A stretch of DNA of 64,000 nucleotides from Winogradskyella marina (GTDB lineage: Bacteria; Bacteroidota; Bacteroidia; Flavobacteriales; Flavobacteriaceae). Positions 3,484-20,569 of this stretch are shown one piece after another (positions within the stretch are counted from its first letter, which is position 1; every line of letters starts with the position of its first letter). The notes beneath the pieces were generated by a model that worked only from the letters and a program-made list of their open reading frames with translations, ran no database searches and was not told the origin of the DNA. The DNA lies in contig NZ_JADOET010000003.1 of NCBI RefSeq assembly GCF_015645385.1, positions 1 to 64,000 on the forward strand, read 5' to 3'. Position numbers and translations under genes: made by a program.

Positions 3484-4722
3484 TTACTTTAATAAACTCA
3501 TAATCTTAAAGCCAATGGTCGTATCTAATTCATTAGACGAATTTAAAACCGAAACAAACCCCATTTTACATTGATGGTTCATTTCTAAAAGTTCTTCAGT
3601 ATGAATAGAATAATCATCCGTGTTATAGGATTTAAATGTGTTCTCTGTAGGTTCACCAGGATATAGCAGCATAGCCTTATTGGCATCCCAAAAGCGACAA
3701 TACGTATACATCTGTCTTAAATCAGTAACAGAAGCTGTACGTCTATTAGGACGTTTCCATTTAGTATCTATAATGTATGTTTTATGACCTTCACGTAAAA
3801 CAACATCTGGCCGCAAACTATTGTTCCCCCAAAAAGATTTCGATTCTTGGCCTGACACTTCAATATTGGTGCCTTCACAAGCCTTTTGAACTTGTTTTAA
3901 TATATAGGTTTCCCACAAGTCATTCATATCAAATAAAAGTGATAACATTTTTTCTTTACCACTCGAGATGTCAGGAGAATAATTTAAAATAATGAGTCTC
4001 GCCAATTCTAAAGCGTCATTGTAGCCATTCGATTTTCTGTTTAACTTTATAGTATTCAATTGTTGTGCTGTGATGGTTTTAGTATCTACTTGCGGAAAAT
4101 TTAATAGAACTCTACTACTCAAATCACACAATCGTGTACCTTTCGTAAACTGATCGACAATCGCTAAGGCTTTATATAAAACTTGATGCAATAAATGATT
4201 GGTATCATACACCTGATGTGTGGTATAAAAACGTTCTTTGTGAACTAGGTTTTTTCTTATATGTCCTGCAAATTCTAATTTCCCTTTTAAAGCTTTTGTA
4301 TTATGAGTTTGCTTTCTGTAGTGTTTAATGACTCCTTTTCTGATTAAGGTATCTACTTCAAGTAAAAACAATTCAAAATAGACCTCCAATAAATTAAGAT
4401 GTTGTCGTTTAACATTTGCAGCACCGGATGAATCCGCTTTTAGCTTACCACAAGCCTTTAACATCTGTAAAAGCACACCTTTCCAACGACTATCATCATC
4501 ATCCTTATCTGCTTTTGGATGAATTTCAATGGTTAAACCATCCACCTGAATAACACCTACATATTGATTAAACTTAACCCCTTTGGCTATAGGCTCAAAA
4601 TAATTGCCATCGTGGTATTCATTTAGTTTTAATAGGGCATCCAAATGTATTTGCCTAAAACCATGTTCCCCAACATACAAGCGCTGGTGCTCAAAAACCG
4701 TTATGTTATTGCGTTTTATCAA
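3484..4722 (-). CDS. mcrC: McrC-like nuclease subunit of a McrBC restriction system
   Basis: A 412-aa partner of the McrB GTPase next door. The C-terminal half has a PD-(D/E)xK nuclease core: RPDVV (Asp306) and IIDTKWK (Asp319, Lys321). McrBC complexes cut DNA carrying modified cytosines, and McrC supplies the cleavage site and stimulates GTP hydrolysis. The start is unusual. The gene is in the same reading frame as mcrB, separated from it only by TAA (4725-4723), and the first possible start is the TTG directly after it (4722-4720); the next in-frame ATG is near residue 87, inside the conserved part. Last gene of the restriction block. Confidence 0.9.
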   Translation of the reverse strand: MIKRNNITVFEHQRLYVGEHGFRQIHLDALLKLNEYHDGNYFEPIAKGVKFNQYVGVIQVDGLTIEIHPKADKDDDDSRWKGVLLQMLKACGKLKADSSGAANVKRQHLNLLEVYFELFLLEVDTLIRKGVIKHYRKQTHNTKALKGKLEFAGHIRKNLVHKERFYTTHQVYDTNHLLHQVLYKALAIVDQFTKGTRLCDLSSRVLLNFPQVDTKTITAQQLNTIKLNRKSNGYNDALELARLIILNYSPDISSGKEKMLSLLFDMNDLWETYILKQVQKACEGTNIEVSGQESKSFWGNNSLRPDVVLREGHKTYIIDTKWKRPNRRTASVTDLRQMYTYCRFWDANKAMLLYPGEPTENTFKSYNTDDYSIHTEELLEMNHQCKMGFVSVLNSSNELDTTIGFKIMSLLK

Positions 4723-7533
4723 TTATGGCGAAACGGTTTCAGTTTTACCAAGCAACCCTTCTACAGCAGAAATAACGGTAGTTGCATTGACTGGTTTAAG
4801 ATGATAGCTCGCAATTCTAAAATCATTCGCATTATCATAGTCAAAACTTGCAAAATCAACCTTATCATTCTTTTGTTTTTCAACAAAACCTTTACCTAGC
4901 ACCAAGCCTATTTTACCATAGTCTCCATAAAAGTACTCTTGTAATAACGGCACAATTTTATTATTGAATGCCTTGGCTAATTGCTCAGAAGTACCAACTC
5001 CTACAAAATACGAATGCCCAATGGTATGATCCCTATCTATCAATAATTCTACACGCTGATTAATCGTTTCCAAAACTTCTGATAACAAAACACCTGCAAC
5101 CTCCTCTCCATTAATAACATTATAATCTGGCATTATTTCTTTAAACTCAAAACGACGACGTAATGCTGTATCTAAAGCTTCAACAGAACGGTCTGCCGTG
5201 TTCATAGTGCCATAAATATCCAAATTAGAGGGTACACTAAACTCCTTTTTAGAGTATGGTAACGTAATACTCAATTCATTTTTTGCTCCCTTCCGTTTAT
5301 CGGTCTCAATAAGTGTTATCAATTCTCCAAAAATTGCCGACACATTCCCTCTGTTGATTTCATCAATAAATATAGCATAACGATTCTCAGGATCATGCTT
5401 TGCTTTCGCACATATTCTTTTAAAGACACCATCCTCTATTGTAAAACCCAAATCTTTAGAATCTTGTACTTCCGCATCCACTTCTGGTAAGATCGGCTTT
5501 ATACCCTCTATAAAATCCTCGTAAGCAAAGGACTGATGAAAGGTTACAAAATTGTAATGCTTTATAATCTTATCTGGATCTGGATTATAATGTTCAACTG
5601 AATCTTTTAACTCATACAATTCTGGCACTAATTCCTCTACCTGATCCTCTAATATTTCCCAATAAGTATCTTCTGTTTTATTAAAAATTAAAGGTTGTTG
5701 TCTGTTTGTTACATTAACATATTCACATTCATTTATTGTATGACTTTGTAATTGCCCCCATAGTGTAGGTCTAACCGTTTTAGAGCTTGATAAACTAGCT
5801 TTTTTCTTAACCCAATCATGTTCAAAAATTTCAGAAACTTTAGAGTTACCCATATCTAATAACGCGATTGCAATTACTTGCCACCATGAACAGTTACTAA
5901 CTACTATTTCAAAATGTTGTTCTTTTGAAATAGAGGTTTCTTTAGATGTATACTTATTAAACAGCTGATCTTTTAAATAAAACGTTTTTCCTGTTCCAGG
6001 TGGTCCGTATAGAATTTGGTTTTGAGCAGGACTGTAATTAAACACTTCATTAACAACAGCATTTGATTCGTTAAACCTTTGCTCTAGAAACTGATAATAA
6101 TTTGTTTTACCCAAAATGGCTCTTGGTCTATGTGCGCTTTCTCTTTCACTGTATCTAAAAAATTCGCTGTTGTCGTCTTTGTATGCAACTTGGTCTATGA
6201 TGTCAATAATACTATTATAATTTGTCTTAGACACTTCAAAAACATCAATCTCGAAATACGTATTATAATTGTCTAGATAACGCCGAAGTGTGTCTTTATC
6301 ATTTGAGAAATAATTTGATTTTGGTTTATTAACTAGCCAATTGATAAACTCCTGTTTTACATTTTCAAGTTTATTTTCATTGGTCTTTAGAAACTCCAAG
6401 AAAGGTTCGTTAAAATCACTATACAAAGATTTAAATTGACTTAATAAACCGGATTTAACCTTCTCGTAGTTTTCTGGCTTTAAATCATATGGTATTTTAG
6501 TTTTTGGAACTAATTTAAAATGTTCTCCCTTGTCTATTTCTTTATCACCAATTCCCGTTTGCCATTTTGAAAGTTTTAAGCCATTCTGAGAATTTGGAAA
6601 CTCATTAATAAATGATTGTATAGATCTTTTAAATTCTAGATTACCTTCTGGATGAACTTCAAAACAAATTTCTTTACTGTATCGATATAGCTCGTAATGC
6701 ATTTCTGCAATAGAAATCTGAGATGTATTTGGAAGAATTGAAACCTGTCTATAGCTTTCTGTATTTTTATCTACCCAAACATGATGCTTTAATGGGTGTT
6801 CTTCATTTTCTATCTCTTCCTTTAGCTCATTAAATAAGCGACTCATAAATTTTTTGTTATCTCCAGAGGCAGGAACTGAAATTAACATGTTATATACAGC
6901 ATCTTGAAAAATGAGTTTTATTGAGTTAAATTTAAAATCTTTAGGTATATAATTGTTACATAATTCTAATAACTCCTCATCCTTTTCTAGATAAGGAATA
7001 AAACGGGTGGCTAACTGTACAAAATGATCATACTTTTCACCTGCTGTAGTTACCTTATCTATTTCCAAATATTCGCAAAGTGCTTCATAAACATTTGCTT
7101 TATATAAATAATCTCCCTCAGGGTTATTTAGTACGCGTAAAAAAGAAATAGTCCGTTCATCTAATTGATGAGATAGGTTATCTCTGTTTAGCGTTTGTTT
7201 TAAATCTATTAAGCATTGGTCTGCAAACTGCCTAGAAAGATTATAGATAGCACCAAAACTCGATTTGGTATTAAGTATTAAAGCAAATAATCGTTGTAAT
7301 TTATCTGGATGGTTTTTTCCTAATTTATCTAAAAAGCCATAAGAGTTTTGGAACATTAGATTTTCCCTTTTACTCAGTGCTTGCTTAAACATAATATAAA
7401 AATTGGAAGATTGAAAATCCCAATGGTCTTGAAAATTTGCAATGGCTTGCCATTTATAAACCTCGTCTTTATTTCCATTTTTTCTTAGATAATTTTTATA
7501 ATCATCAATTAGCTTTACAATTTTTTCCTCCAT
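4723..7533 (-). CDS. mcrB: McrB-like AAA+ GTPase, motor of McrBC restriction
   Basis: A 936-aa protein with a C-terminal AAA+ motor: Walker A GPPGTGKT at 510-517, [10 protein letters not shown] (Walker B region plus the McrB-type NRGN) at about 721-730, and MNTADRS at 777-783 followed by the ALRRRFEF sensor/arginine region. The N-terminal 490 residues, the likely DNA-recognition part, are long and match no reader domain I recognise. About 120 extra residues (roughly 530-655) separate Walker A from the conserved NFVTFHQS block. It probably forms a ring with McrC that translocates on DNA and cuts modified targets. Translation is coupled to mcrC through a bare stop codon. Confidence 0.9.
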
Positions 7534-8056: not shown

Positions 8057-9181
8057 TTACATCTCTCCCTTAAAAGCCTGATCTAACAAACTGCTTTTTA
8101 AGGCTTTTAAATCATCTAATTTTTCTTGAATTGAAGTTTCTAGCTTCTTAGTCTCTTCTTGAATTTGAACAATTCTTTTAACTTGTTTTTTCTGAATTGA
8201 AAGTTTAGGAACAGGTATTTTCCATTCTTCTAAAAAAGGTCTTGGAACTCTTTTTAAACCACCTGCACCTGTCATATTTTCTTTTCCTGTTACTCTGAAT
8301 TGTTCTGTTAAAACAGAAAAATATATCCATTCTGGCAACATATTTACTTTTGGTCTTAATACATGATATTCTGAAGAACCAAAACCAATTCCATTTACTA
8401 AGTCTTTCGCTAGACCAGCTTTTCCATTTTCAAAACAAGGTGTGACTTTTGCAAGTACAATATCACCATCTGCAAAATAAGTGTAACCTTTATAAACTTC
8501 AGAAATTTTTCTTGTTTCATTTGGAATGAAATTAATGTCATGTTCGTTTAAATCTCTCATTGGTAAAAATGAAACCTCTAAGTTATCATCAAGATCTCTA
8601 ACTTCTGATTTTTTTGGACCAGGAACACAAACTTCTTTAAGCATTGTGTCTCCATCTGAATATATTTCATCCAACACAGAACCCATTAAAGCCTGCGTAT
8701 GCAAAATGTTTTCTTCTAACAAACCAATAGCTTGGTCTATTTTGGCAAACAAACCATCTAGTTTTTTAACGATGCGTTGTTGTTCTGGTAATGGTGGAAG
8801 TGGGATTTTAATTTCCTTAATACCTTTATATGAAATTACCGGTTGAGCTGCCTGATTAGCTGTAGAGCCTAAATTATAATGTTCAAGAAATAATTTCAAA
8901 AACTGTTTATCAAACTCCTCAAAGTATTCAGAAATGTAAAAAGCATTATCAGTTAACCATATCTTTTCTTTAATAAACCTTACGTTTCCACACTTTGCCC
9001 CAACTCTTCCAATTATTATATTCTCTCCTTCTAAATTGAAATCTTCAGCATATCCAGTAATGCCATTACCTCCATAAACAGGAAATTCTTTATTTTCAGA
9101 AATATCTTTTCTCTTAATAAAATTTCCACTTCTAATTTTAAATAATTTTTCAATTTGTATTTCTTCCCACTTACCCATCAA
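8057..9181 (-). CDS. hsdS: type I restriction-modification specificity subunit HsdS
   Basis: A 374-aa target-recognition subunit with the usual duplicated plan: TRD1 (about 1-115), a central conserved helix containing LPPLPEQQRIVKKLD (about 128-145), TRD2 (about 175-325), and a distal helix ending LLDQAFKGEM. The two helices set the spacing of a bipartite DNA target, which cannot be read from the sequence. The start overlaps the hsdM stop by 11 bp, implying coupled translation. TRD1 resembles the short form often seen in Bacteroidota. Confidence 0.92.
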   Translation of the reverse strand: MMGKWEEIQIEKLFKIRSGNFIKRKDISENKEFPVYGGNGITGYAEDFNLEGENIIIGRVGAKCGNVRFIKEKIWLTDNAFYISEYFEEFDKQFLKLFLEHYNLGSTANQAAQPVISYKGIKEIKIPLPPLPEQQRIVKKLDGLFAKIDQAIGLLEENILHTQALMGSVLDEIYSDGDTMLKEVCVPGPKKSEVRDLDDNLEVSFLPMRDLNEHDINFIPNETRKISEVYKGYTYFADGDIVLAKVTPCFENGKAGLAKDLVNGIGFGSSEYHVLRPKVNMLPEWIYFSVLTEQFRVTGKENMTGAGGLKRVPRPFLEEWKIPVPKLSIQKKQVKRIVQIQEETKKLETSIQEKLDDLKALKSSLLDQAFKGEM

Positions 9182-10670
9182 TCAACTGTTCTATTTGGTT
9201 CATTAATGTGTTTATTTGGCTATCATTTTTCTTGATGGCTGTTAGTAGTTCTTTAGGACTTTGGTGGATGACCTCAACCACTTTGTGTGGGTTTTTGGCG
9301 CTAAGATCGTAGTCTTTTATGTCTGCAACGTTAACAGTCCAGTCATGGCACTCTTTACCAGTTTTTGCATTTGTAGCGTTTCGTTCTTTTGGGTTATGGA
9401 ATAAGTGTACAAACTCTTTTAAGTGCTCATAAGTAATCGGTTTATTCTTGGTAAGTTTGTAAGGAGGTGTCACATCGTAATACCAAATATCACTAGTAGC
9501 GCCTTTTCTATCAAAATAAATAATATTGGTTTTTACACCACTATAAGGCAAAAACACGCCAGAAGGCAAACTAACTATGGTATGTACATTAAAGTTCTCT
9601 AACAAGGATTGCTTTACTTTGGTAAAGGCATTATTGGTTTGAAACAAAACCCCTTCTGGCACCACAATGGCTGCACGACCTTCTAGTTTTAGCATTTTCA
9701 TGAAATGCTGTAAAAACAAGATTTCAGTAGCGTTACTTTCTACCGGAAAGTTTTGTTGTATCTGCTTTTTCTCTTTTCCTCCAAAGGGTGGGTTTGCTAA
9801 AATAACATCGTGTCTGTCCTTTTCTTGGTAATCGCGAATGTTTTGAGTAAGTGTATTGCCTTTAAATACGTTTGGGCTTTCTATACCATGTAGTATCATA
9901 TTCATCATGCCCATTACATACCCTAAACTGGTTTTTTCTTGTCCAAAAAAGGTATCGTTTTGTATGGTGTCCCAATCTTTAGCAGATAGTTTCTCTTTTT
10001 TACCATCTTGCGTCAAAAAATCGAAGGCTTCTACTAAAAACCCACCAGAACCTACTGCGCCATCGTAAATGGTGTCGCCTACTTTAATATCGGTAGTTTC
10101 TACCATGGCTTTAATAATGGCTCTTGGTGTATAGAATTCTCCTGAGTTTCCGCCATCGCTCCCCATACTTTTTAGTAAGTTTTCGTAGACTTGCGAGAGC
10201 TCAAACAATTCATCACTACTTTGGAAATCTAAACCATCAATAATGTCTAACACCTCACGTAGTGTGTGACCACTTACAATCCGGTTATCGAGATACTCAA
10301 AAATAGCGCCTATTTTATAGCTTAAAGACTTAGGGCTATTAGTTGCAGATTTAAAAGCCTGCAAATAGGGAAACAAGGTTTTATTGACAAAATCTATTAA
10401 ATCATCACCTGTTAAAGCCCGTTTTACATCGAGTTTGCCAGCATCATCTTTAGGGCAAGCCCATTGTTGCCAACGTAAATCTTTGCGTAGTACATGTTTG
10501 TAATCCGTACCCTCTAAGAAAGCTTCATCGGCTTTATTGTCTTCGTAATCGTTAAGAAACTTAAGAAACAGAATCCACGAGATCTGCTCGGTGTAGTGCA
10601 TTGCTCCTGAAATACCATCGTCTCTACGTAGTATGTCTGTGATTCTGTCTATATTGTTTTGTATGCTCAT
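9171..10670 (-). CDS. hsdM: type I restriction-modification DNA methyltransferase HsdM
   Basis: A 499-aa N6-adenine methyltransferase. It has the N-terminal HsdM helical domain (about 5-150), GEFYTPR at 177-183, the SAM-binding motif I region YDGAVGSGGFL at 202-212 and the catalytic motif NPPF at 293-296. Motif I departs from the common DPACGSGGFL form, with Gly for Pro and Val for Cys. With HsdS it forms the M2S1 methylase that protects host DNA. It lies between the GIY-YIG cassette and hsdS on the same strand. Confidence 0.94.
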   Translation of the reverse strand: MSIQNNIDRITDILRRDDGISGAMHYTEQISWILFLKFLNDYEDNKADEAFLEGTDYKHVLRKDLRWQQWACPKDDAGKLDVKRALTGDDLIDFVNKTLFPYLQAFKSATNSPKSLSYKIGAIFEYLDNRIVSGHTLREVLDIIDGLDFQSSDELFELSQVYENLLKSMGSDGGNSGEFYTPRAIIKAMVETTDIKVGDTIYDGAVGSGGFLVEAFDFLTQDGKKEKLSAKDWDTIQNDTFFGQEKTSLGYVMGMMNMILHGIESPNVFKGNTLTQNIRDYQEKDRHDVILANPPFGGKEKKQIQQNFPVESNATEILFLQHFMKMLKLEGRAAIVVPEGVLFQTNNAFTKVKQSLLENFNVHTIVSLPSGVFLPYSGVKTNIIYFDRKGATSDIWYYDVTPPYKLTKNKPITYEHLKEFVHLFHNPKERNATNAKTGKECHDWTVNVADIKDYDLSAKNPHKVVEVIHQSPKELLTAIKKNDSQINTLMNQIEQLIDG

Positions 10671-10703
10671 TTATGTTTTAAGTTAGTTTATTTGTCACTT
10701 TTT

Positions 10704-10729
10704 GTCACACTAAGCGCAGTCGAAGTGCC
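10704..10729 (+). repeat. dispersed palindromic element, left of the GIY-YIG gene
   Basis: GTCA, arm CACT, loop AAGCGCAGTCGA, arm AGTG. It lies between hsdM and the GIY-YIG gene and points toward that gene. It pairs with an inverted copy at 11091-11116. Confidence 0.8.
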
Positions 10730-10743
10730 TCACTATAACTTTT

Positions 10744-11064
10744 TTAATCTCTTGGTTTATATTTATAATGACTCACATTTCTGCATTCTGATAATATTTG
10801 TAACCTATCAAAATCCCCATCAATTAATGCTTTTTTCTTAGCTCTAGACCAACCCTTAATTTTTTTCTCAAAATAAATTGCTTGGATTACATCATTAAAC
10901 TCTTGCTGAAAAACTAATGTTAACGGTCTCCTGCTATAAGTATAACTATCACGTTTTGTACCTGCTTGATGTTCATTAAATCTTTTGGATAAATTATTGG
11001 TAATACCTGTATAATATGACTTATCTGCGCATAATAAGATGTAAACAAAGTATTGATAATGCAT
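10744..11064 (-). CDS. GIY-YIG nuclease domain protein
   Basis: A 106-aa single-domain GIY-YIG protein of the small UPF0213/YhbQ-like type: FVYILLCADKSYYTGITNN carries the paired GIY/YIG-like segments (VYILL and YYTGIT), followed by LSKRFNEHQAG and, later, a helix with the conserved acidic residue in AIYFEKKIKGW. Members are presumed metal-dependent DNA nucleases. It sits between hsdR and hsdM, where type I systems normally have nothing, and is bracketed by inverted copies of the dispersed palindromic element. This looks like a mobile cassette that landed in the operon, not an integral restriction subunit. Confidence 0.85.
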   Translation of the reverse strand: MHYQYFVYILLCADKSYYTGITNNLSKRFNEHQAGTKRDSYTYSRRPLTLVFQQEFNDVIQAIYFEKKIKGWSRAKKKALIDGDFDRLQILSECRNVSHYKYKPRD

Positions 11065-11090
11065 TTTTATTTTATGTTGTTTGTTTTATT

Positions 11091-11116
11091 GGGCTTCGAC
11101 TGCGCTCAGCCTGACA
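11091..11116 (-). repeat. dispersed palindromic element, right of the GIY-YIG gene
   Basis: On the minus strand: GTCA, arm GGCT, loop GAGCGCAGTCGA, arm AGCC. Inverted relative to the copy at 10704-10729, it closes the putative GIY-YIG cassette just downstream of the hsdR stop. Confidence 0.8.
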
Positions 11117-11124
11117 TTATTGGT

Positions 11125-13431
11125 TTATCCTGCTCTATATATGTTTTCCTGTAATTTATAATAAGCACCTAATAAAGTTTTCATATCACCAAATGCGGTT
11201 TTAGCATCTTTGGTTGTGCCTAATTTTAGTTTTACTAAATCGCCGAGTTTATCGCGTTGTAATTCTTCAATACCATATTTTTCATAATGACTTAAAATGA
11301 ATTCTAAAAAATCTTTAGCCTCTAAGTTTTTATAGACTTCAAAAAATTCGGGTTCGTCTTTCACAAACTTAACACGCTGTTTGCGTGTCATAAGTTCCGA
11401 TGAAAACGAAATATGCGAAAGCACATCAAAAATATCGCATGCTGGTGTGGCTATCATATTTCGTAAATCGTTGAGCTGTTCATTATCAAAACCTAAATCA
11501 CCTAGTTTTATTAATAAATCGGCTCTCGTATCTGGATTGGACCATATTTTACGCAAATGTGTTTCATCTTTATAAATCGCAGGTAATTCGCCAATAAGCT
11601 TTTCTAAAAATTCACGAGCTGTCAATGGTTTTCCGTTTTCGTCTATGTAGCGCGTATCAACATCTATAACCTTTAATTGTCTCCCATTAGACAATTCAAT
11701 AATTAGTTTTTCTTTTCGCTCATAAGGTTCTCCAGGATCTTTAACTTTAGGTTTTCGAGGTGGTTTGGGTTGTGGCTCACCTCCTGCTCCATCATCATTG
11801 GGTTCTACAGGTTCACCATCCCAAGCAGCATCATAAAACAAATTGGTAGCACCAACAAAATCAATTATGGTGAAAAAGTCTTTACCATCAAATACACGTG
11901 TACCACGTCCAATAATCTGCTTGAACTCAACCATAGATCCTATAGGTGCCGTTAAAACAATATTGCGAACATTTCTAGCATCTACGCCTGTGGTTAGCAT
12001 TTTAGACGAAGTTAATATCACCGGAATATCTTTATCATTATCTTGAAATGCCTCTAGTAATTCGCGGCCATGTTTACCTTCATCACTCGTTACACGAACA
12101 CAGTAATTGATATCTGATACTTCTTTATGCTTATTTATATAATCTCTTAAATCTAGCGCATGATCTTGATTGGCACAAAACACAATGGTTTTATCCATTT
12201 TACCAATCTGTTTTAAAATGGTTTTAGCGACGAGCTCAATACGCTGTTTTACGGTAATACTATTGTTGAAATCTTTAAGTTCGTAACGGTCTTTAGATAC
12301 TTCACCTTGAATAATTCTACTATCGTTAGTGTGTATGTATTCATCAATATTAGTCGTTACACGCTTTACTTTATAAGGCGTTAAAAATCCATCTTGAATA
12401 CCATCCTTTAGCGAATACTCGTAAATAGGTTGTCCGAAATATTTATAGGTATCTACATTATCATCGCGTTTAGGTGTTGCAGTTAACCCTAAGTGAACCG
12501 CAGGACTAAAATGATTTAAAATGGCACGCCAAGAGCCTTCTTCATTGGCACTACCTCTGTGACATTCATCAATAACAATAAGATCAAAAAAATCTTCAGG
12601 ATATTCTTTGTAATAGCCACCAATATCTTCGCGCTCTGCAATGGCTTGGTAAATAGCAAAAAAGATGAATGCGTTAGTAGGCACTACTCCATTCCGTTTT
12701 CTCACCTCTTCACCATCGATTTTAATGACATCTTTTTCGTAGGGATTAAAAGTATTAATGGCCTGATCTGCAAGAACGTTTCGGTCTGCTAAAAACAATA
12801 TACGCGGTCGTCGGTTTTCGCCTTCAATATTCCATTTAGCTTGTAGCAATTTATGTGCTATTTGAAACGAAATAAATGTTTTCCCTGTTCCGGTTGCTAA
12901 GGTGAGTAATATTCTATTTTTACCATCTGCAATACTTTCCATTGTTTTATTAACAGCAATCTCTTGGTAATAACGTGGTCCAAAATTACCTGTTAGTAAA
13001 AACGGAATACTCAGAAGCTTTTCTTTTAGCTCATTTTTTGCACCAAAAAGTCTGTTGTACAATTCTTGAGGTGTTGGAAAACTATCTACATATTCCCCTT
13101 TCCCTGTTCGCCTATCAAACTCATAAATTTGTTTTCCATTGGTAGCGTAAACAAAGTTAATTTTAAGTTTTTCGGCATATTCTAATGCTTGTTGTAATCC
13201 TTTGGTTGGATGGTCTCCTAGCTTTTTAGCTTCAACAATGGCTAAGTTGGTATTGTTGTACTTTAATAGGTAATCTAAAAATAAACGTTTACCTCTTTTA
13301 TTCCCTAGTAGTTTTCTACCATCTGTAAAGTAATATTCCCTAACAATGTGAATAGCTTCCCATTTACTATCAACCAATTTAGGGTCAATAAAATTTGCTC
13401 TAGTATCAGATTCTGAAATTTGTTTTGTCAT
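11125..13431 (-). CDS. hsdR: type I restriction endonuclease motor/nuclease subunit HsdR
   Basis: A 768-aa restriction subunit. It has an N-terminal nuclease core (Asp53 in FLDYLL, Glu67 and Lys69 in VEAKK), then a superfamily 2 motor: Walker A ATGTGKT at 179-185, DECH box at 288-291, motif III GLTATPK, and a second RecA-like domain with ILTSSKMLTTGVDA and the QIIGRGTRV motif. A proline- and lysine-rich linker lies at about 550-575, followed by the helical C-terminus that docks on the methylase. First gene of the minus-strand restriction block. The stretch upstream of its ATG is AT-rich. Confidence 0.94.
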   Translation of the reverse strand: MTKQISESDTRANFIDPKLVDSKWEAIHIVREYYFTDGRKLLGNKRGKRLFLDYLLKYNNTNLAIVEAKKLGDHPTKGLQQALEYAEKLKINFVYATNGKQIYEFDRRTGKGEYVDSFPTPQELYNRLFGAKNELKEKLLSIPFLLTGNFGPRYYQEIAVNKTMESIADGKNRILLTLATGTGKTFISFQIAHKLLQAKWNIEGENRRPRILFLADRNVLADQAINTFNPYEKDVIKIDGEEVRKRNGVVPTNAFIFFAIYQAIAEREDIGGYYKEYPEDFFDLIVIDECHRGSANEEGSWRAILNHFSPAVHLGLTATPKRDDNVDTYKYFGQPIYEYSLKDGIQDGFLTPYKVKRVTTNIDEYIHTNDSRIIQGEVSKDRYELKDFNNSITVKQRIELVAKTILKQIGKMDKTIVFCANQDHALDLRDYINKHKEVSDINYCVRVTSDEGKHGRELLEAFQDNDKDIPVILTSSKMLTTGVDARNVRNIVLTAPIGSMVEFKQIIGRGTRVFDGKDFFTIIDFVGATNLFYDAAWDGEPVEPNDDGAGGEPQPKPPRKPKVKDPGEPYERKEKLIIELSNGRQLKVIDVDTRYIDENGKPLTAREFLEKLIGELPAIYKDETHLRKIWSNPDTRADLLIKLGDLGFDNEQLNDLRNMIATPACDIFDVLSHISFSSELMTRKQRVKFVKDEPEFFEVYKNLEAKDFLEFILSHYEKYGIEELQRDKLGDLVKLKLGTTKDAKTAFGDMKTLLGAYYKLQENIYRAG

Positions 13432-13788: not shown

Positions 13789-14097
13789 ATGAGAATCGAA
13801 ACAAAAAGTAATATTCAAAAAAACAAAAATAAATCATATAGCGATCTATTAAAAACTCGACAATGGCAAAGAAAAAGAAAATTGATTTTAAATCGTGATA
13901 AGAATCAATGCCTAAACTGCACTTCTAAGAAAAATCTTCAAGTCCACCATAGACAATATCAATTCGATAACATCATAAGTGATTTTGTAGCTCCTTGGAA
14001 TTATGACAATAAATATCTCATAACGCTATGCCATAACTGTCACCAAATTGGGCATGCTAATTATAAAGTACCTGTAATCAATATTAATAAACAATAA
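13789..14097 (+). CDS. HNH endonuclease
   Basis: A 102-aa HNH nuclease. It has the zinc-type CLNC at about 43-46, the catalytic HHRQY at about 57-61 (first His pair), and LCHNCHQIGH at about 85-94, supplying the second Cys pair and the last His. The basic N-terminus (KTRQWQRKRKL) is typical of single-domain HNH proteins that nick or cut DNA. It starts an AT-rich run of plus-strand genes; the next gene begins 5 bp after its stop, so they are probably cotranscribed. A role in defence is plausible from the neighbours but unproven. Confidence 0.85.
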   Translation: MRIETKSNIQKNKNKSYSDLLKTRQWQRKRKLILNRDKNQCLNCTSKKNLQVHHRQYQFDNIISDFVAPWNYDNKYLITLCHNCHQIGHANYKVPVININKQ

Positions 14098-14102
14098 ATA
14101 AA

Positions 14103-14672
14103 ATGAAAACAATTAAAAGACTATTCGGATTAAACAAAGAAAGTAGAAAATCTCAAGGTTTTAAAAATTCAGATCCTATAGGTTTGTCTGAATCCACCCA
14201 TCTACCTCCAGAAGAACTATTTATTGACAATTCGTCACCAAAAGAATCAAGAGAAGTAAAAAAAGTTCATTCTCAATTAATCAACGATTATCTCAATAAA
14301 GATTATTATCAAATTGGGATTCAAGAAGGCTTTTCGATGCATTCTAACGAGGCAGCTCAATCAAGAAAACAACTCATTAAATCTAATTTCAGGAATCTTA
14401 TAAATGAAATTATTGAAGAAAACAGGGAAGCTATTTTTAATTTGAGCAACAGCTTAATTGAAGTTTCAGATCTTTCAACTGAATTAAAAGACAAGCTTGA
14501 AAACAAAATAGAATTTCTAAAAGCCGAAATAGATGATTTAGATCTACAAAAGCAACTTTCAATTGAAGACGAAGGGCTCGTAATGTCTGCTATCCACAGC
14601 TACCATCAAGGGTTTCTATCAGGAATAAAGAGCTATTTAGAAATGGATAAAATCATCAACAATAACTATTAA
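14103..14672 (+). CDS. hypothetical coiled-coil protein
   Basis: A 189-aa soluble acidic protein. The first 55 residues look disordered, rich in Ser, Lys and Pro. Residues about 60-150 form long charged helices with coiled-coil character (IEENREAIFNLSNSLIEV and LKDKLENKIEFLKAEIDDL). The C-terminus is helical. No known domain. It lies 5 bp after the HNH gene and 10 bp before the DUF4407 gene, so the three are likely one transcript, and it may bridge the nuclease and the membrane protein (inference). Confidence 0.7.
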   Translation: MKTIKRLFGLNKESRKSQGFKNSDPIGLSESTHLPPEELFIDNSSPKESREVKKVHSQLINDYLNKDYYQIGIQEGFSMHSNEAAQSRKQLIKSNFRNLINEIIEENREAIFNLSNSLIEVSDLSTELKDKLENKIEFLKAEIDDLDLQKQLSIEDEGLVMSAIHSYHQGFLSGIKSYLEMDKIINNNY

Positions 14673-14682
14673 TAGATCAGAT

Positions 14683-15657
14683 ATGTTACGACTATGTTCA
14701 ATTCTTATAGGTGAAGAATATAAATACACTAATAGATTTCAACCTTCTAGTAAACGAAAGATACTTCTTCTCGGCACCTCAATGATGATTCCTGTTATTC
14801 TATGGTTCCTAACAGCTTTTCTTTCTAGTAAAAACCTAATGGACAACGGGTTAACTATTTCTTTAATTACAGGTTTTATCGCTGCGCTTATTATATATTT
14901 AATTGAAAGATCGATAGTTTTATCTAATGGAGGTTGGCCGATAGCTATTTTTAGAATTCTTCTTGGCTTTGCTATTGCATCTATGGGAGCTATTGCTTTA
15001 GATCTAGTTATTTTTAAAAGTGATGTAGATAATAAAGTAAATACATTTAAAGGTATTTATTTAGACTCCATTCATAATCATCTTGAAAACAAATATCACA
15101 AAGATTTAGAGGACAAGAGAAACCTTCTCAAAACTACTTTTATTAATTACCAGAACGCAGAAATGAACTATAAAGATGAGATGCAAGGCAAGGAAGGTAA
15201 TAGTAGTGGTTTAGCAGGAAACGGTTCTATCTCAAATAAATTAGAAAACATAATGGATGTCGCACATGCCACATACTTAAAACAAGGTAATACGGTTAAG
15301 GTATTCGAATCTAATAAGATTTTAAAAATTGAGGAGGCTCTAAATGAGGCAGAATCAAAATTTAATCCTAATGGGCTTTTGATTCGAATAAAGGCATTAA
15401 ACGAACTCGTTCAAGAAGATTCTAATTTAAGCAAAATTTACTGGTTATTTACTGGACTTCTTTTTTTAATGGAATTTATAGTGATTATTATCAAATTGGT
15501 AAGTAGAAAATCTATAGACGAAGAAGTTGAATTGTTTAGAGACGAAGTAACACTTACAAAATTACAGCAATACAGATCAATTTTGCAAGGTAATAATCAT
15601 TCTTTAGAAAATCTTCCAAAAATTATGAAAGCAAATAAATTACTAGGCGGAGATTAG
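14683..15657 (+). CDS. DUF4407-type membrane protein
   Basis: A 324-aa protein with hydrophobic segments at about 27-48, 55-79, 87-111 and 251-272, separated by a large charged helical domain (112-250) rich in Lys and Glu. The helical pairs, the IYLIERSIVL segment after the second helix and the long coiled middle fit the DUF4407 family, whose function is unknown. It ends the HNH-coiled coil-DUF4407 set; a 109-bp gap with its own palindrome separates it from the sigma gene. A membrane sensor or effector role is a guess from topology. Confidence 0.7.
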   Translation: MLRLCSILIGEEYKYTNRFQPSSKRKILLLGTSMMIPVILWFLTAFLSSKNLMDNGLTISLITGFIAALIIYLIERSIVLSNGGWPIAIFRILLGFAIASMGAIALDLVIFKSDVDNKVNTFKGIYLDSIHNHLENKYHKDLEDKRNLLKTTFINYQNAEMNYKDEMQGKEGNSSGLAGNGSISNKLENIMDVAHATYLKQGNTVKVFESNKILKIEEALNEAESKFNPNGLLIRIKALNELVQEDSNLSKIYWLFTGLLFLMEFIVIIIKLVSRKSIDEEVELFRDEVTLTKLQQYRSILQGNNHSLENLPKIMKANKLLGGD

Positions 15658-15766: not shown

Positions 15767-16357
15767 ATGTCAGATCAAGAGCTCATACAACTAATTAGGG
15801 ATGACCAAGACTATCTTGGAGTTGTGTATAAAAACTGTAAAGACTACTGTATGTCATTTATGAGAAAAATGACTAACAATTATACAAATAATGATCTCAG
15901 TGATATCTATCAAGATGCTATAATAATTTTATATGAAAAAATAGTAGCTGGCAACTTTGAATTAACTGCTACAATTCAGACTTATTTAAATTCTGTTTGT
16001 CGTTTTCAATTATTAACTAAATTTAAATCTGATAAGAAAACTATTAAACAAGATGATGAAATAATTTTTGATTTATTAAATAAAAATGAACAATTTGATG
16101 ACACTATAACTGATATATTAGAACCAATTGAAAATGAAAAAGAAAATCAGTTCAACGCTATTGAAAATGCATTGAAAATGATGAAAGACAAAGGAGGTAA
16201 ATGCTATGAACTATTAACTTTATTTTGGTACCAAAGAAAATCAATGAAATATATTTCTGAGTATTTAGGGTATACCAATGCAGCAAATGCCAAAGCTCAG
16301 AAGTATAAATGTCAAAAAAGGTTAGAAAAATTTGCCTTTAATTATTTGAACCTTTAA
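15767..16357 (+). CDS. ECF-type RNA polymerase sigma factor
   Basis: A 196-aa sigma-70 family protein. Region 2 is recognisable from about residue 15 to 95 (YCMSFMRKMT, then DIYQDAIIILYEKI, the usual core-binding helix, and the SVCRFQLLTKFK segment). A C-terminal helix-turn-helix (about 150-190, MKYISEYLGYTNAANAKAQKYKCQ) corresponds to region 4. It would redirect RNA polymerase to a dedicated promoter set. The partner gene starts 2 bp after its stop, the classic sigma/anti-sigma arrangement, and the TPR-CHAT protease follows. Confidence 0.85.
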   Translation: MSDQELIQLIRDDQDYLGVVYKNCKDYCMSFMRKMTNNYTNNDLSDIYQDAIIILYEKIVAGNFELTATIQTYLNSVCRFQLLTKFKSDKKTIKQDDEIIFDLLNKNEQFDDTITDILEPIENEKENQFNAIENALKMMKDKGGKCYELLTLFWYQRKSMKYISEYLGYTNAANAKAQKYKCQKRLEKFAFNYLNL

Positions 16358-16359
16358 TA

Positions 16360-17538
16360 ATGAATAACGGAATAGAAATAGTTAAAGAATTACTTCTTCC
16401 TCATATTGAATTAGAAGTAAGTCCTTTTATTGAAAATATCGATTGGGCGACAATCACTTCAAGCTTTATTTGTTATGAAGATGATCCCAAACCGTTATAT
16501 ACAGAAATATATAAACTTGAATTATCAGAACCTGAAAATGTCATTACTCAGTTACCAACGCTATACAAATCTTTTATAGATGAAATGGCTGAACAATTTG
16601 TTCTAGGAATAGAAAATGAAACCATCACGACATTATTGAAAAAGCAAAATGCTTTATTTACTGAAAGAGTCACTTTTTTTAAAATATTAGAGAGTGCTAT
16701 AACTAAACAAGAACGCCGTAGAATAATTAAAGAATTACCTAGCCTTTCAGATCGAATTAATTTTTCGCTCTCAGATATAGAGATGAAAGCTGCAATTAAA
16801 AAAAAAGCTAGAACAGACTTAAAAGATAAATTTAGCGAATGGGATAATGATTTGATTGCAAAGAAAGAAGAGTGGATTTTTGCAAAAAAAGTACCTGATT
16901 ATAATCAAACGAATGAAGGTCAAAATTCTGATTCTTCAACAGAGAAAAAGACGCAAGGCAAAGTTATTTCTCTCTCATGGATAAAATATGCTGTAGCTGC
17001 AATTTTACTTCTAGGTTTTTTCATATGGCAACCCACTCAAAAAACTAACAACGAACTGTTTGCACTATACGAAAATAATTTAACATCACTAACTGAGGAT
17101 AATTTTAGTTTGCTTGAATTTGAAGAGTTTTATTATTATGATCAAAGAGGAGATGAAAATATTCTAGAAAATTATAGTTTAGAAGAGAGTAATAAGGCCT
17201 TTTATGGACTAAATGCTTTTAAAGATGAAAATTATGACAAAGCGAAAGAAATCTTAACCGAATTAAAACCTAAAGCACATAACAACCAGATTCTTTTCTT
17301 TCTTTCTTTATCTCAACTTAATACGAATGATCTTGATAACTCTATAATTAATCTTGAATATTTACTCAATCAAACTAACTTTAGCTACTCAGATGATGTT
17401 AAATTTCATTTATCAATGGCGTATCTAAAAAAGGGAGATAGAAATAAGTCTAAACTATTATTAAAACAGTTAATTGCAAATAACAGCAAGTTCAAAGATG
17501 AATCTCAATTAATTCTTAAAGAAATGAGATGGTTTTAG
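16360..17538 (+). CDS. single-pass membrane TPR protein, putative anti-sigma factor
   Basis: A 392-aa protein with a cytoplasmic-looking N-terminal half (1-205, helical and charged), one membrane segment at about 207-224 (YAVAAILLLGFFIW), and a periplasmic C-terminal half with two or three TPR-like helix pairs (about 285-385). No classical zinc-type ZAS motif is seen. Its position 2 bp after the sigma gene and one-pass topology fit an anti-sigma factor. With a TPR-CHAT protease encoded 16 bp downstream, it is also the best candidate for that protease's substrate. Both roles are inferred from context. Confidence 0.7.
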   Translation: MNNGIEIVKELLLPHIELEVSPFIENIDWATITSSFICYEDDPKPLYTEIYKLELSEPENVITQLPTLYKSFIDEMAEQFVLGIENETITTLLKKQNALFTERVTFFKILESAITKQERRRIIKELPSLSDRINFSLSDIEMKAAIKKKARTDLKDKFSEWDNDLIAKKEEWIFAKKVPDYNQTNEGQNSDSSTEKKTQGKVISLSWIKYAVAAILLLGFFIWQPTQKTNNELFALYENNLTSLTEDNFSLLEFEEFYYYDQRGDENILENYSLEESNKAFYGLNAFKDENYDKAKEILTELKPKAHNNQILFFLSLSQLNTNDLDNSIINLEYLLNQTNFSYSDDVKFHLSMAYLKKGDRNKSKLLLKQLIANNSKFKDESQLILKEMRWF

Positions 17539-17554
17539 ATTTTAAATTAATAAA

Positions 17555-20500
17555 ATGAAAAAAATATTTGAAAAGCTTCTATCCTATTTTATTCTAGCTA
17601 TAATTTTATATTTTATCCTAAGCCTTATACATTTATCATGGTATATTGCTAATCCCGAGGGATTCTTTGGTTTTACTTATTTTATTGAGGTTGTTCGAGC
17701 GGTACTCTCCATACTTTTAGTTCTATTAATTCTTGTTTTTGGTGGATGGGCTCTAATCGCTTCTTTACTATCCTTAATAAAGAGAAAATCTTCAATTAAA
17801 GATTTATTAAAACTTATTGGAATTATTGGGCTCTTGGTTGTCATCATTATTTTCAATAGTGTTTGGGCTGGAGGTCTTTCATATATATTTACTTCCGAAC
17901 TATCAGAAAAGTACAGTTTGATTAATAAAACTGAAGAATATTTGTATGATGGTGAAATTGAGAAAGCATTAAAACTAGCTTCTAAGTCTTACGAAAAAGA
18001 ACAAGATAGAAATATAGGGTGGTTCTTTATATTGACTAAACTTTATAGTAAAACAAACTACGATAAAAAGGAGAAATTACTATCTAGATACTCTTCAACT
18101 TTAAACTATGGCTACTGCTTAAAAGGTATTGTTTCAAACAGCGACACAGGCGAAGGTAAATTTAAGGAAGCTATTACAATAGCAAATTCAAATTTATTAA
18201 ATGAGGAACGAAATGAGTTACTTATATTTCCTTTATTATCACTGTCAGAAATTAATTTAAGTTCTGAAAGATTTAAAGCAGCTGATGAGTATTTTAAAAA
18301 ATTATCAAGCTTACAAAAACAATCACAACCTGAAGATGCATATTATCTAATTAACACATATATGTTGTTTTCCGCAAAGGCTTCTGCAATTGGTGATTTC
18401 ACAAAATCAATAAAACTTCAAAACGAGGCCCTCAACATATACGAAGAAAGCGATTTAAGTAAAACATCTAAGAATTATTTATCCTTACTACTTGCTGTTA
18501 GTCTTGGAGAACTATATAATGAAAACTTCACGAATGCCGCGAATCTATTAATCAAATCTCAGCCAATTGCGGAAGATAAAGATGATACATCTGCATACTT
18601 AGACTACTTATCAATTAAAGGTAATTATTGCTTTCTTTCTGCTATTAATGGGAAAGGTGATGAACGACTTTTAGAAAAGAGCTTTTGGAAAAAAATTACT
18701 AACTCATCAAGTGAGAAATTAAGCTTAAAGAATAAACTACTTAACCAAGCAGAGGATTGTTTTAACGAATTGGTTGAAAAATCTAAAGATTTATCAGGTC
18801 GTCATAGTGGTATTCATGTTAATGCACTAATAACCCTCGCGAACTATTACTATTTAACCTCTCAATTTGTTAAAGCAAAATCAAATTTTGACATAGCATT
18901 ATCAATGCTAGAAAATTCAAAAAAAGAAAATGAGGACTTTTATTACCAAATCTACTTGAAAAGTCTATTAAATGAACGACAGCTAACTGATGTTAATATT
19001 AATAAACTGAATAAAATCGAAAGTTTACTTTTTGAGAAATTAAATACAAACTACGCAGTTCTTACAGAGGAAGAAAAAGAAACATATACAATCAGCCTGC
19101 AAAAGTATCTCAATTTAGTAAATGATTTTTATGTTAAAGAAGATTCTGAAGTATCAAGAAAGCGTTTATATAACAATATTACTTCTATTAAGAGTATGGC
19201 TTTATCATCAAATATAGCTATAAGAAGTTATATTAAAGATGCAGAAGATTCCATTAAATCTTCTTATAATCAAATTTTAAATCAAAAAAAACAATTTAAA
19301 ATGAAGTCATTCGGTTTTGAAAATTTACAAGAATCGGAAGAACTTAAAGTTAAAGAAAAAACATTACTTGAAAATATCTACAATGATCCAAAATTTAAAT
19401 CTCATAAGCCTAAAAGTATTGACTGGAAAAATATCAAGAATGCATTAAAGCCAGGTGAGGTTGCTATTGAGTTTATTAATCTACCTCAAAACCATAATAA
19501 AAAACCGAACTCTGAATATTATGCCCTTTTGATTGGTTTAAATTATTCTTCACCTAAACTAATTAAGCTGTTTAATGAAAACGACTTGAAAGGTTTATTA
19601 AATACGAACGGAAATACACAAACGAGAGTGAACAGTATTTACAACTTGAATCATAAAAAACTATATAGTTTGGTCTTCTCTCCCATTGAGAATTTTCTGG
19701 AAGATAATTCTGTAATTTATATTTCAAAAAGTGGCCTTCTTCATAATATTTCGTTTTCAGCTTTGACTAAAGATAAATTATGGGATATAAGAATTTTACA
19801 AAACACAAACCATATAACTGAACGAGATGAACTAAATACTTCTAACAAAGCAGTACTTTTTGGTGGTATAGATTATAATATAGAATCAGATAGTATAAAA
19901 GAAAGAACAGGTAATCTTTTGAATAATAAATACAAGAGCCTAAATTATACCCTATCGGAGGTCAACAATATAGCTTCACTTTTCATGAAGGATACTAATA
20001 AAACTTCAATAACATATACAAAAACTATGGCTTCAGAAACTTCATTCCGAAAGTTATCTGGCTCAGAAACAGATATAATTCACTTAGCAACACATGGTTA
20101 CTACAATGGCAATAATAAATTCAATTCATTTATATACAGTAATATTAATAATGGACAGTTTGAATCAAGCCCATTGTTGAGAAGCGGAATTCTCTTGGCT
20201 GGTGCTAATAATTCAAGTTACAGTAATACTAACAATGATGGTATTATGACTTCATTAGAAATATCCGAAATGGATTTCTCAAAAGTAGACTTGGTCGTCC
20301 TATCTGCATGTGAGACAGGTTTAGGAGATGTTCTCGGAAGCGAAGGTGTCTTTGGACTTCAAAGAGCATTTAAATTAGCAGGTGCAAAATCTTTAATTGT
20401 TAGTTTATGGCAAGTACCCGATGAACAAACTTCTGAACTAATGCTCAAGTTCTATGCATATTATTTAAATGGAAATTCTAAGACTCAAGCTTTAAGGAAT

Positions 20501-20569
20501 GCTCAAAATGATATTAAAATGAACTATCCAAATCCTTACTTTTGGGCTGGTTTTGAACTGATAGAGTAA
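17555..20569 (+). CDS. membrane-anchored TPR-CHAT protease
   Basis: A 1004-aa protein. It has three predicted membrane helices near the N-terminus (about 9-31, 45-70, 84-103), then long TPR-like helical repeats (about 125-560), a linker, and a C-terminal CHAT (caspase HetF-associated with TPRs) domain at about 640-1004. The clan CD dyad is intact: His847 in HLATHG and Cys919 in LSACETG, with the family's AGAKSLIVSLWQVPD and PYFWAGFELIE ends. So it should be an active cysteine peptidase. It is the third gene of the sigma / anti-sigma-like / CHAT triad. Substrate and trigger are unknown; no CRISPR or cas gene is in the window. Confidence 0.88.
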   Translation: MKKIFEKLLSYFILAIILYFILSLIHLSWYIANPEGFFGFTYFIEVVRAVLSILLVLLILVFGGWALIASLLSLIKRKSSIKDLLKLIGIIGLLVVIIIFNSVWAGGLSYIFTSELSEKYSLINKTEEYLYDGEIEKALKLASKSYEKEQDRNIGWFFILTKLYSKTNYDKKEKLLSRYSSTLNYGYCLKGIVSNSDTGEGKFKEAITIANSNLLNEERNELLIFPLLSLSEINLSSERFKAADEYFKKLSSLQKQSQPEDAYYLINTYMLFSAKASAIGDFTKSIKLQNEALNIYEESDLSKTSKNYLSLLLAVSLGELYNENFTNAANLLIKSQPIAEDKDDTSAYLDYLSIKGNYCFLSAINGKGDERLLEKSFWKKITNSSSEKLSLKNKLLNQAEDCFNELVEKSKDLSGRHSGIHVNALITLANYYYLTSQFVKAKSNFDIALSMLENSKKENEDFYYQIYLKSLLNERQLTDVNINKLNKIESLLFEKLNTNYAVLTEEEKETYTISLQKYLNLVNDFYVKEDSEVSRKRLYNNITSIKSMALSSNIAIRSYIKDAEDSIKSSYNQILNQKKQFKMKSFGFENLQESEELKVKEKTLLENIYNDPKFKSHKPKSIDWKNIKNALKPGEVAIEFINLPQNHNKKPNSEYYALLIGLNYSSPKLIKLFNENDLKGLLNTNGNTQTRVNSIYNLNHKKLYSLVFSPIENFLEDNSVIYISKSGLLHNISFSALTKDKLWDIRILQNTNHITERDELNTSNKAVLFGGIDYNIESDSIKERTGNLLNNKYKSLNYTLSEVNNIASLFMKDTNKTSITYTKTMASETSFRKLSGSETDIIHLATHGYYNGNNKFNSFIYSNINNGQFESSPLLRSGILLAGANNSSYSNTNNDGIMTSLEISEMDFSKVDLVVLSACETGLGDVLGSEGVFGLQRAFKLAGAKSLIVSLWQVPDEQTSELMLKFYAYYLNGNSKTQALRNAQNDIKMNYPNPYFWAGFELIE

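Follow-up and report, generated by a model that had tools for sequence, protein, structure and literature searches.

Three elements of the biology discussed here are already known: proteolysis of anti-sigma factors, control of a sigma inhibitor by the CHAT protease of craspase, and CHAT genes located near ECF54 sigma factors. The type III-E craspase system, as described in passages of PMC10028731, comprises Csx29, a tetratricopeptide repeat (TPR) protein with a CHAT protease domain, the sigma inhibitor Csx30, and the extracytoplasmic function (ECF) sigma factor CASP-sigma. The CHAT part of Csx29 is said in the same passages to resemble separase, a caspase-fold protease, and the DegS/RseP/ClpXP order of regulated proteolysis is also set out there. 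We analyzed a 64,000-nucleotide stretch of the Winogradskyella marina genome (contig NZ_JADOET010000003.1, positions 1 to 64,000; hereafter the window), in which three consecutive genes encode an ECF-type sigma factor (SIG), a one-pass membrane protein (MID), and a membrane-anchored TPR-CHAT protease (CHAT). With a probability of roughly 0.65, we read this triad as a sigma/anti-sigma/protease switch, in which CHAT would act as a caspase-like site-1 protease that cuts MID after arginine 263 (R263) and so starts release of the sigma factor.

Comparison with described systems

The triad shares with craspase the combination of a TPR-CHAT protein, a putative sigma inhibitor, and an ECF sigma factor (PMC10028731). 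A profile of the CHAT family matched Csx29 structures, with E values from 2.6e-7 (8d9h) to 7.7e-6 (7zoq); the window CHAT protein alone matched no PDB chain at 0.1. Craspase, however, has Cas7-11/gRAMP and a CRISPR array, whereas neither CRISPR-like repeats nor Rfam families were found in the window, and no Cas7-11 was present among the 20 window proteins scanned against PADLOC (out of 61 open reading frames of at least 100 aa), a search that did not extend to the rest of the genome. Further differences are that the protease and inhibitor of the triad are both membrane proteins predicted to meet in the periplasm, that the inhibitor is a one-pass TPR protein, and that Csx29 has Ser at profile alignment column 956, where the window CHAT has Asp (D956). 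The original prediction had described the locus as a CRISPR-free craspase output module; the relationship of its TPR-CHAT protein to Csx29 holds, but the resemblance as a whole is a functional analogy and not membership. In the excerpted accounts of Csx30, cleavage falls between residues 427 and 429 and is stopped by deletion of M427; these excerpts stress loop length and report no single essential residue.

In RseA/RpoE and RskA pairs, which are under the control of regulated proteolysis, a sigma gene is directly followed by the gene of a one-pass anti-sigma protein; the gene order in the window is alike, and the N-terminus of MID bears a weak to moderate resemblance to an RskA-type protein. 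The triad differs from these pairs in that the outer part of MID is composed of TPRs and in that a dedicated caspase-fold CHAT takes the place of DegS as the predicted site-1 protease. For ECF54, passages of PMC8999054 name CHAT, subtilase, and carboxypeptidase as conserved neighbors and propose control by proteolysis; compared with ECF54 as described there, the triad has an anti-sigma-like protein with a candidate site. Caspase-fold protease, ECF sigma factor, and TPR protein also occur together in the EACC2/DUF1822 neighborhoods described in part of PMC8195603, but Pfam detected no DUF1822 in the triad. Among the matches listed in the open-licence literature, none described a CHAT module at the membrane whose candidate cut site co-evolves with the protease.

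The SIG-MID-CHAT triad

The three genes lie on the plus strand, with SIG (196 aa) followed after 2 bp by MID (392 aa) and after a further 16 bp by CHAT (1004 aa), matching the sizes, gaps, order, and catalytic positions originally given. The features are as follows (window coordinates, all plus strand).

15767..16357, +: SIG, ECF-type sigma factor gene, 196 aa (TIGR02937; family profile matches solved ECF sigma structures)
16360..17538, +: MID, one-pass putative anti-sigma protein, 392 aa (alignment with 31 relatives, 14-24% identity)
16360..16974, +: MID residues 1-205, presumed cytosolic part containing an anti-sigma-like region (N-terminal profile match, transmembrane segment excluded)
16975..17025, +: MID residues 206-222, predicted transmembrane segment, scan optimum 202-220 (hydrophobicity, positive-inside flanks)
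17146..17148, +: MID R263 codon, predicted P1 residue in the stalk (conservation; co-variation with CHAT)
17182..17529, +: MID residues 275-390, TPR-like helical repeats (AlphaFold2 block-mean predicted local distance difference test score, pLDDT, 65-92; TPR matches in relatives)
17555..20569, +: membrane-anchored TPR-CHAT protease, 1004 aa (PF12770, E 4e-49; TPR_12, E 2.1e-8)
17561..17896, +: CHAT residues 3-114, N-terminal transmembrane region, three or four segments (hydrophobicity)
19655..20560, +: CHAT domain, residues 701-1002 (Pfam)
19958..19960, +: CHAT E802 codon, first predicted S1-pocket acid (co-variation rank 1 with MID263)
20093..20095, +: catalytic H847 codon (invariant in 38/38 aligned sequences and in 75/75 readable of 76 pairs)
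20309..20311, +: catalytic C919 codon (invariant in the same sets)
20420..20422, +: CHAT D956 codon in the SLWxVxD motif, second predicted S1-pocket acid (co-variation rank 2 with MID263)

The assignment of SIG as an ECF sigma factor was borne out by a match to TIGR02937 (sigma70-ECF) spanning residues 21-188 (E 4.7e-11), with a score of 42.6 bits, just below the curated cut-off of 42.9. Pfam returned only Sigma70_r2 for the window SIG alone (E 0.073). In the aligned set, Sigma70_r2 was found in 21/29 sequences and Sigma70_r4 in 11/29, the window copy reaching neither Pfam region, and the profile built from these 29 sequences matched the structures of SigW, SigH, SigL, and RpoE, with a best E value of 7e-13. 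The CHAT assignment, a putative protease by sequence, comes from PF12770 at residues 701-1002 (168 bits against a cut-off of 24) together with the TPR_12 match. The dyad of H847 and C919, earlier called intact, was invariant in every aligned sequence, the window copy included.

A hydrophobicity scan of MID found a single hydrophobic segment. The TPR end of the window protein is weak when searched alone (TPR_6, E 0.0047, below cut-off); TPR families matched most of the 31 aligned relatives, and the MID profile, of which the window protein is itself a row, recovered it at E 2.6e-37. The AlphaFold2 model of MID was confident in the TPR part only; it placed R263 at the start of a loop with low confidence, which we do not count as evidence. 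With the transmembrane segment included, the N-terminal part of the profile matched another protein of the same genome (E 2.5e-7), which is RskA_C by Pfam (E 2.9e-16) and whose gene starts 1 bp behind a sigma gene (SIG profile, E 5.8e-16). When the segment was removed, only two non-MID matches (E up to 1) were found among 2085 fetched proteins, this same RskA_C protein (E 0.0026) and a protein without a Pfam match (E 0.0074). The window MID N-terminus, which carries a long extension, matched this reduced profile weakly (E 0.0025). The best 60 of 193 PDB matches of the MID profile contained no anti-sigma chains and were mostly TPR and other repeat proteins. The resemblance of MID to an anti-sigma factor is rated weak to moderate.

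Prevalence and gene arrangement of the family

A contig scan with single proteins yielded one distant locus only (L012) and was replaced by whole-genome family searches. These revealed that the same gene set recurs across genomes of the order, class, and phylum, in agreement with the expectation that the genes travel together; the triad is thus a member of a family and not an orphan. The first survey covered 41 stretches, drawn from CHAT matches in 296 Flavobacteriales genomes plus one further locus, and MID was present in 34 of them, with a sigma gene in front in nearly all cases. A caution is that CHAT neighborhoods supplied the sequences for the MID profile, although the profile was afterwards searched genome-wide. 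PF12770 was found in 37 of the 296 genomes (60 places) and the MID profile (E 1e-15) in 40 (59 places), with 35 genomes containing both, 2 CHAT only, 5 MID only, and 254 neither (Fisher p 1e-37). MID lay within 15 kb at 53/60 CHAT places, a linkage by which we reject a chance neighborhood, and CHAT lay within 15 kb at 50/59 MID places. The CHAT and MID copy numbers mostly agreed (2/2 in the W. marina genome, 4/4, 5/5, and 3/3, with 6/5 and 4/3 in others); in genome G042 they disagreed (3/1). The two CHATs of W. marina are paired with two strong MIDs, one pair in the window and one at C52, and six weaker, partial MID matches were also present. The 53 linked places comprised 28 divergent, 21 convergent, and 4 co-directional arrangements, the window being among the last.

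Among 40 further loci from the class and phylum, SIG stood directly upstream of MID in 38, and CHAT was present in the fetched stretch in 29 (13 co-directional, 9 divergent, and 7 convergent). The MID profile (E 1e-12) was also found in 165 of 248 genomes from a different order of the class, with at least 11 places in each of two genomes (11 being the number scored); 60 loci were fetched, and SIG was upstream of 56 of their 62 MIDs, with CHAT in the stretch for 32. In a draw from the phylum, CHAT was present in 45 of the 51 genomes with MID (overlap tallied by hand). A plasmid search for MID gave no match.

Within this widespread family, the window copy is a divergent member. In the searches made, the best long match of its CHAT was about one third identical (33%, residues 627-1002, in G042), and its MID, searched as a single sequence against 59 other genomes (36 of them from the same genus), was matched in just 8, weakly and over part of its length.

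Variant arrangements were also observed. In one genome (G241; L109, the same place as L050), three CHAT genes occur in a four-gene run beside a single SIG-MID pair, a possible multi-sensor arrangement. Many divergent modules have a gene for a 145-aa retropepsin-like aspartyl protease after CHAT (PF13650, E 2.7e-12; L063:9619-10053), and this gene is retained in three related loci where CHAT is missing (L094-L096; L094:8372-8809). A 650-aa protein with PKD, DUF7619, and DUF7849 domains is encoded before CHAT at L063:4957-6906, and genes of similar size stand before CHAT in many divergent modules; the protein is possibly a ligand or target. Among 45 MIDs without CHAT, a cluster of seven proteins, several with caspase-like motifs, was found in 5 loci (L182:2084-5302 and 9275-12583; L189:9357-12389; L192:3159-5438 and 10115-12124; L128:13450-14220; L138:5557-6753). 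Pfam confirmed Peptidase_C14 for both of the caspase-like proteins scanned, and the alignment gives the MID stalk residue as D in L182 and as E in L189. Proteases with a caspase (C14) domain may replace CHAT in some modules.

A conserved stalk residue co-varies with two CHAT positions

In the first MID alignment, the position of R263 was occupied by R in 28 or 29 of 32 sequences, depending on the alignment, and 16 more MIDs from the order had R in 14, K in 1, and S in 1. In 40 MIDs not used in finding the site, the residue was R in 30, M in 3, K and Q in 2 each, and H, T, and S in 1 each, followed by G or S in 30. Over 137 MIDs (R 104, K 18, M 10, D 2, E 1, Q 1, gap 1), the position was the best conserved of 32 stalk columns and the eighth of 227 columns overall. 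The median distance of R or K at the site from the membrane was 25 residues.

D956 had been recorded as a possible S1 acid before testing, by analogy with separase; position 802 was unforeseen. In 76 MID/CHAT pairs (75 usable), CHAT columns 956 and 802 were both found to follow the MID residue. Among the 87,841 MID-CHAT column pairs ranked by mutual information with average-product correction, MID263-CHAT802 came first (z 7.45), MID263-CHAT956 second (z 5.94), and MID263-CHAT845 eighth. On a tree of 75 CHATs from which these columns were left out, the loss of R coincides with that of E802, and mostly with that of D956 too, in three separate clades. The result was extended with 32 new pairs, 21 of them with R, of which 18 had both E802 and D956; the other three have a CHAT neighbor without the catalytic His (two also without the Cys) and were set aside, as was one Q pair, whose MID is the second at its locus and lies farther from the CHAT than an R-type MID does. 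E802 was absent in all four new M pairs, where position 956 was E in three and D in one. In a joint tree of 103 CHATs, column 802 led the 364 columns, with 5/5 of its changes on the 9 branches where P1 changes to or from R (p 4.5e-8); 956 was second (5/7 changes, p 9e-7), and the third column reached p 1.7e-3. In the reverse test, MID263 ranked first of 229 MID columns for both 802 (p 4.9e-6) and 956 (p 1.3e-3). The tree and new-pair results argue against a clade effect as the sole cause, though the independent events are few.

Co-variation points to a CHAT active site that would grip a specific MID residue. Separase, which cuts after Arg (passages of PMC4357240), has been modeled with two conserved acids for the P1 Arg, a glutamate by beta1-alpha1 and an aspartate at the start of alpha4 (passages of PMC4626109). 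E802 lies 45 residues before H847 and D956 lies 37 after C919, an order along the chain that would fit these two acid regions. Separase is a eukaryotic cohesin protease; the likeness is one of residue order only, and no separase chain was matched.

Membrane topology

Lysine and arginine were more frequent before than after the MID segment in 32/32 sequences. Of 102 CHAT relatives, 93 had an N-terminal hydrophobic stretch, 86 a C-terminal one, and 78 both, and the side after the C-terminal segment was the more basic in 78/86. From these charges, we infer that the TPR end of MID and the CHAT domain are periplasmic in the relatives. The window CHAT differs in that its N-terminal membrane region was scanned as three or four segments (residues 3-114), and the side of the membrane on which it lies is less sure. 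If there are three segments, with the basic loop near residue 76 inside, its TPR and CHAT parts would lie outside; three helices are drawn in this region by an AlphaFold2 model that was not used (pLDDT 35).

Proposed mechanism

MID would be a one-pass inner-membrane anti-sigma factor, whose cytosolic N-terminus holds SIG inactive, and whose single membrane-spanning helix leads through a periplasmic stalk to the TPR repeats. The TPR-CHAT protein would be tethered to this membrane too, and the charges of its relatives suggest that its TPR and CHAT domains are periplasmic. The trigger is probably an envelope disturbance, and the sensors are likely the periplasmic TPR parts of CHAT, MID, or both. 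CHAT would hold the MID stalk with Arg263 in an S1 pocket to which E802 and D956 contribute, a contact supported by the co-variation, and would cut after residue 263. Since the predicted cut falls in the periplasmic stalk, release would require another cut, within the membrane; by analogy with other regulated-proteolysis pathways, an M50-family protease may make this cut in the MID stump, and SIG would then reach RNA polymerase. The core of the original prediction, that CHAT would cleave the one-pass TPR protein to free the sigma factor, is supported, and the prediction as a whole in part.

Weighing the alternatives

Several observations weigh against this mechanism. CHAT was missing from the fetched stretch for 11 of the 40 class and phylum MIDs and for 30 of the 62 MIDs of the other order, some of the stretches being cut by contig ends, and SIG was kept beside 25 of these 30. 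In the phylum draw, 143 of 188 CHAT genomes had no MID at that cut-off; given the overlap above, MID therefore mostly implies CHAT in the genome, not the converse, and CHAT has other roles as well. A four-segment reading of the N-terminal region would make the window CHAT cytosolic, the window CHAT sits on a long tree branch, its AlphaFold2 model (two alignment rows, pLDDT 35) was not usable, and R263 of the window MID lies 43 residues past the membrane on a longer stalk. An M50 protease is present in the W. marina genome, but also in all 14 control genomes, and thus indicates nothing specific. As to the co-variation, the 75-CHAT tree contained exceptions, L135 having R but no E802 and L047 having K and both acids, and single rows depended on the alignment, a second one giving L132 as R, L144 as a gap, and L135 with E802. 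Lysine was mixed, E802 being absent in 4/5 K pairs of the first set and present in 6/6 of the second (956 = D 2, A 2, E 1, gap 1). When K was counted with R, 802 remained first (p 2.9e-5) and 956 fell to sixth (p 5.9e-3). The P1-R changes number only 9, or 4 if K counts with R, and a sign test on independent pairs had too few events to reach significance. Because Lys is inconsistent between the sets, the firm statement of co-variation is limited to R versus M. Our confidence in the proposed switch was lowered because the side of the window CHAT is less sure and because SIG is kept beside so many MIDs without CHAT.

The nearest rival shares the stalk-pocket contact and dispenses with the cut: the MID stalk would sit in the CHAT active site as a pseudo-substrate that keeps CHAT inactive, or CHAT would clamp MID, and the real substrate would lie elsewhere. 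Co-variation between the stalk residue and the S1 columns would then reflect binding, and what it suggests is contact, not catalysis; H847 and C919 are nevertheless invariant, and a P1-type residue followed by a small one (G or S, 30/40) resembles a scissile bond, so we think this reading unlikely. A further, weak point against it comes from three genomes of a single genus in which MID occurs and CHAT does not (L094-L096), as SIG is absent in one and shortened and fused in frame to a MID without a start in the other two. Of the other MID-only genomes, G073 has no SIG by MID and G039 keeps it. That SIG depends on CHAT is only a weak hint from these three cases, because SIG persists beside 25/30 other MIDs without CHAT, and this count undercuts any rule that loss of CHAT means loss of SIG. 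Somewhat less probable still is an ordinary SIG/MID pair cut by a general site-1 protease, with CHAT no more than a frequent neighbor, perhaps a regulon target that serves another purpose. The MIDs lacking a nearby CHAT in the other order would suit such a pair, as would the separate divergent or convergent CHAT unit at 49/53 linked places, but the near one-to-one copy numbers and the site-specific co-variation of MID263 with two CHAT columns speak against it.

The genes upstream of the triad in the window are as follows.

3484-7533: McrBC
8057-13431: type I restriction system
13789-15657: HNH-like (weak), 189-aa, and DUF4407 proteins

A phage-defence module, in which a craspase relative lacking CRISPR would detect infection and set off a response at the level of transcription, would agree with the McrBC and type I restriction genes that adjoin the triad and with the pairing of a TPR-CHAT protease and a sigma inhibitor in craspase (passages of PMC10028731). 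When the window's McrBC, type I, HNH, 189-aa, and DUF4407 proteins were compared with 164 other fetched stretches (phmmer, E 1e-5; other defence families were not sought there), they were matched in none, and a general link to defence was not supported. Within the triad, PADLOC matched only SIG, at chance level (Cas1e, E 0.0047), and the second copy in W. marina stands among genes that read, by inspection and not by family search, like TatD, asparaginase, and ExbB/ExbD. We regard a defence role as very improbable. Because it adjoins McrBC and a type I restriction system, the window copy may have been gained horizontally. Tandem direct repeats of about 107 nt, in four to five copies, occupy positions 1-460 of the window.

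Implications

The proposed switch would represent a very large unnamed class, in which a TPR anti-sigma factor has a dedicated site-1 protease of its own, a sequence-specific, caspase/separase-like CHAT that is membrane-anchored and periplasmic; we hold the chances for and against such a class to be evenly balanced. Protease pocket and predicted cut site appear to co-evolve, R occurring with two acids and M with loss of E802, and this could keep parallel modules within one genome, such as those in the two genomes rich in MID, from interfering with one another. The membrane CHAT theme would have a soluble relative in the output of the CRISPR craspase. If the switch operates as proposed, envelope signals would govern transcription through caspase-fold proteases throughout a major group of bacteria, a readable rule would match protease to inhibitor, with the cut site R263 and the two pocket residues as concrete candidates, and the RNA-guided output of craspase would stand beside a broad RNA-free family.

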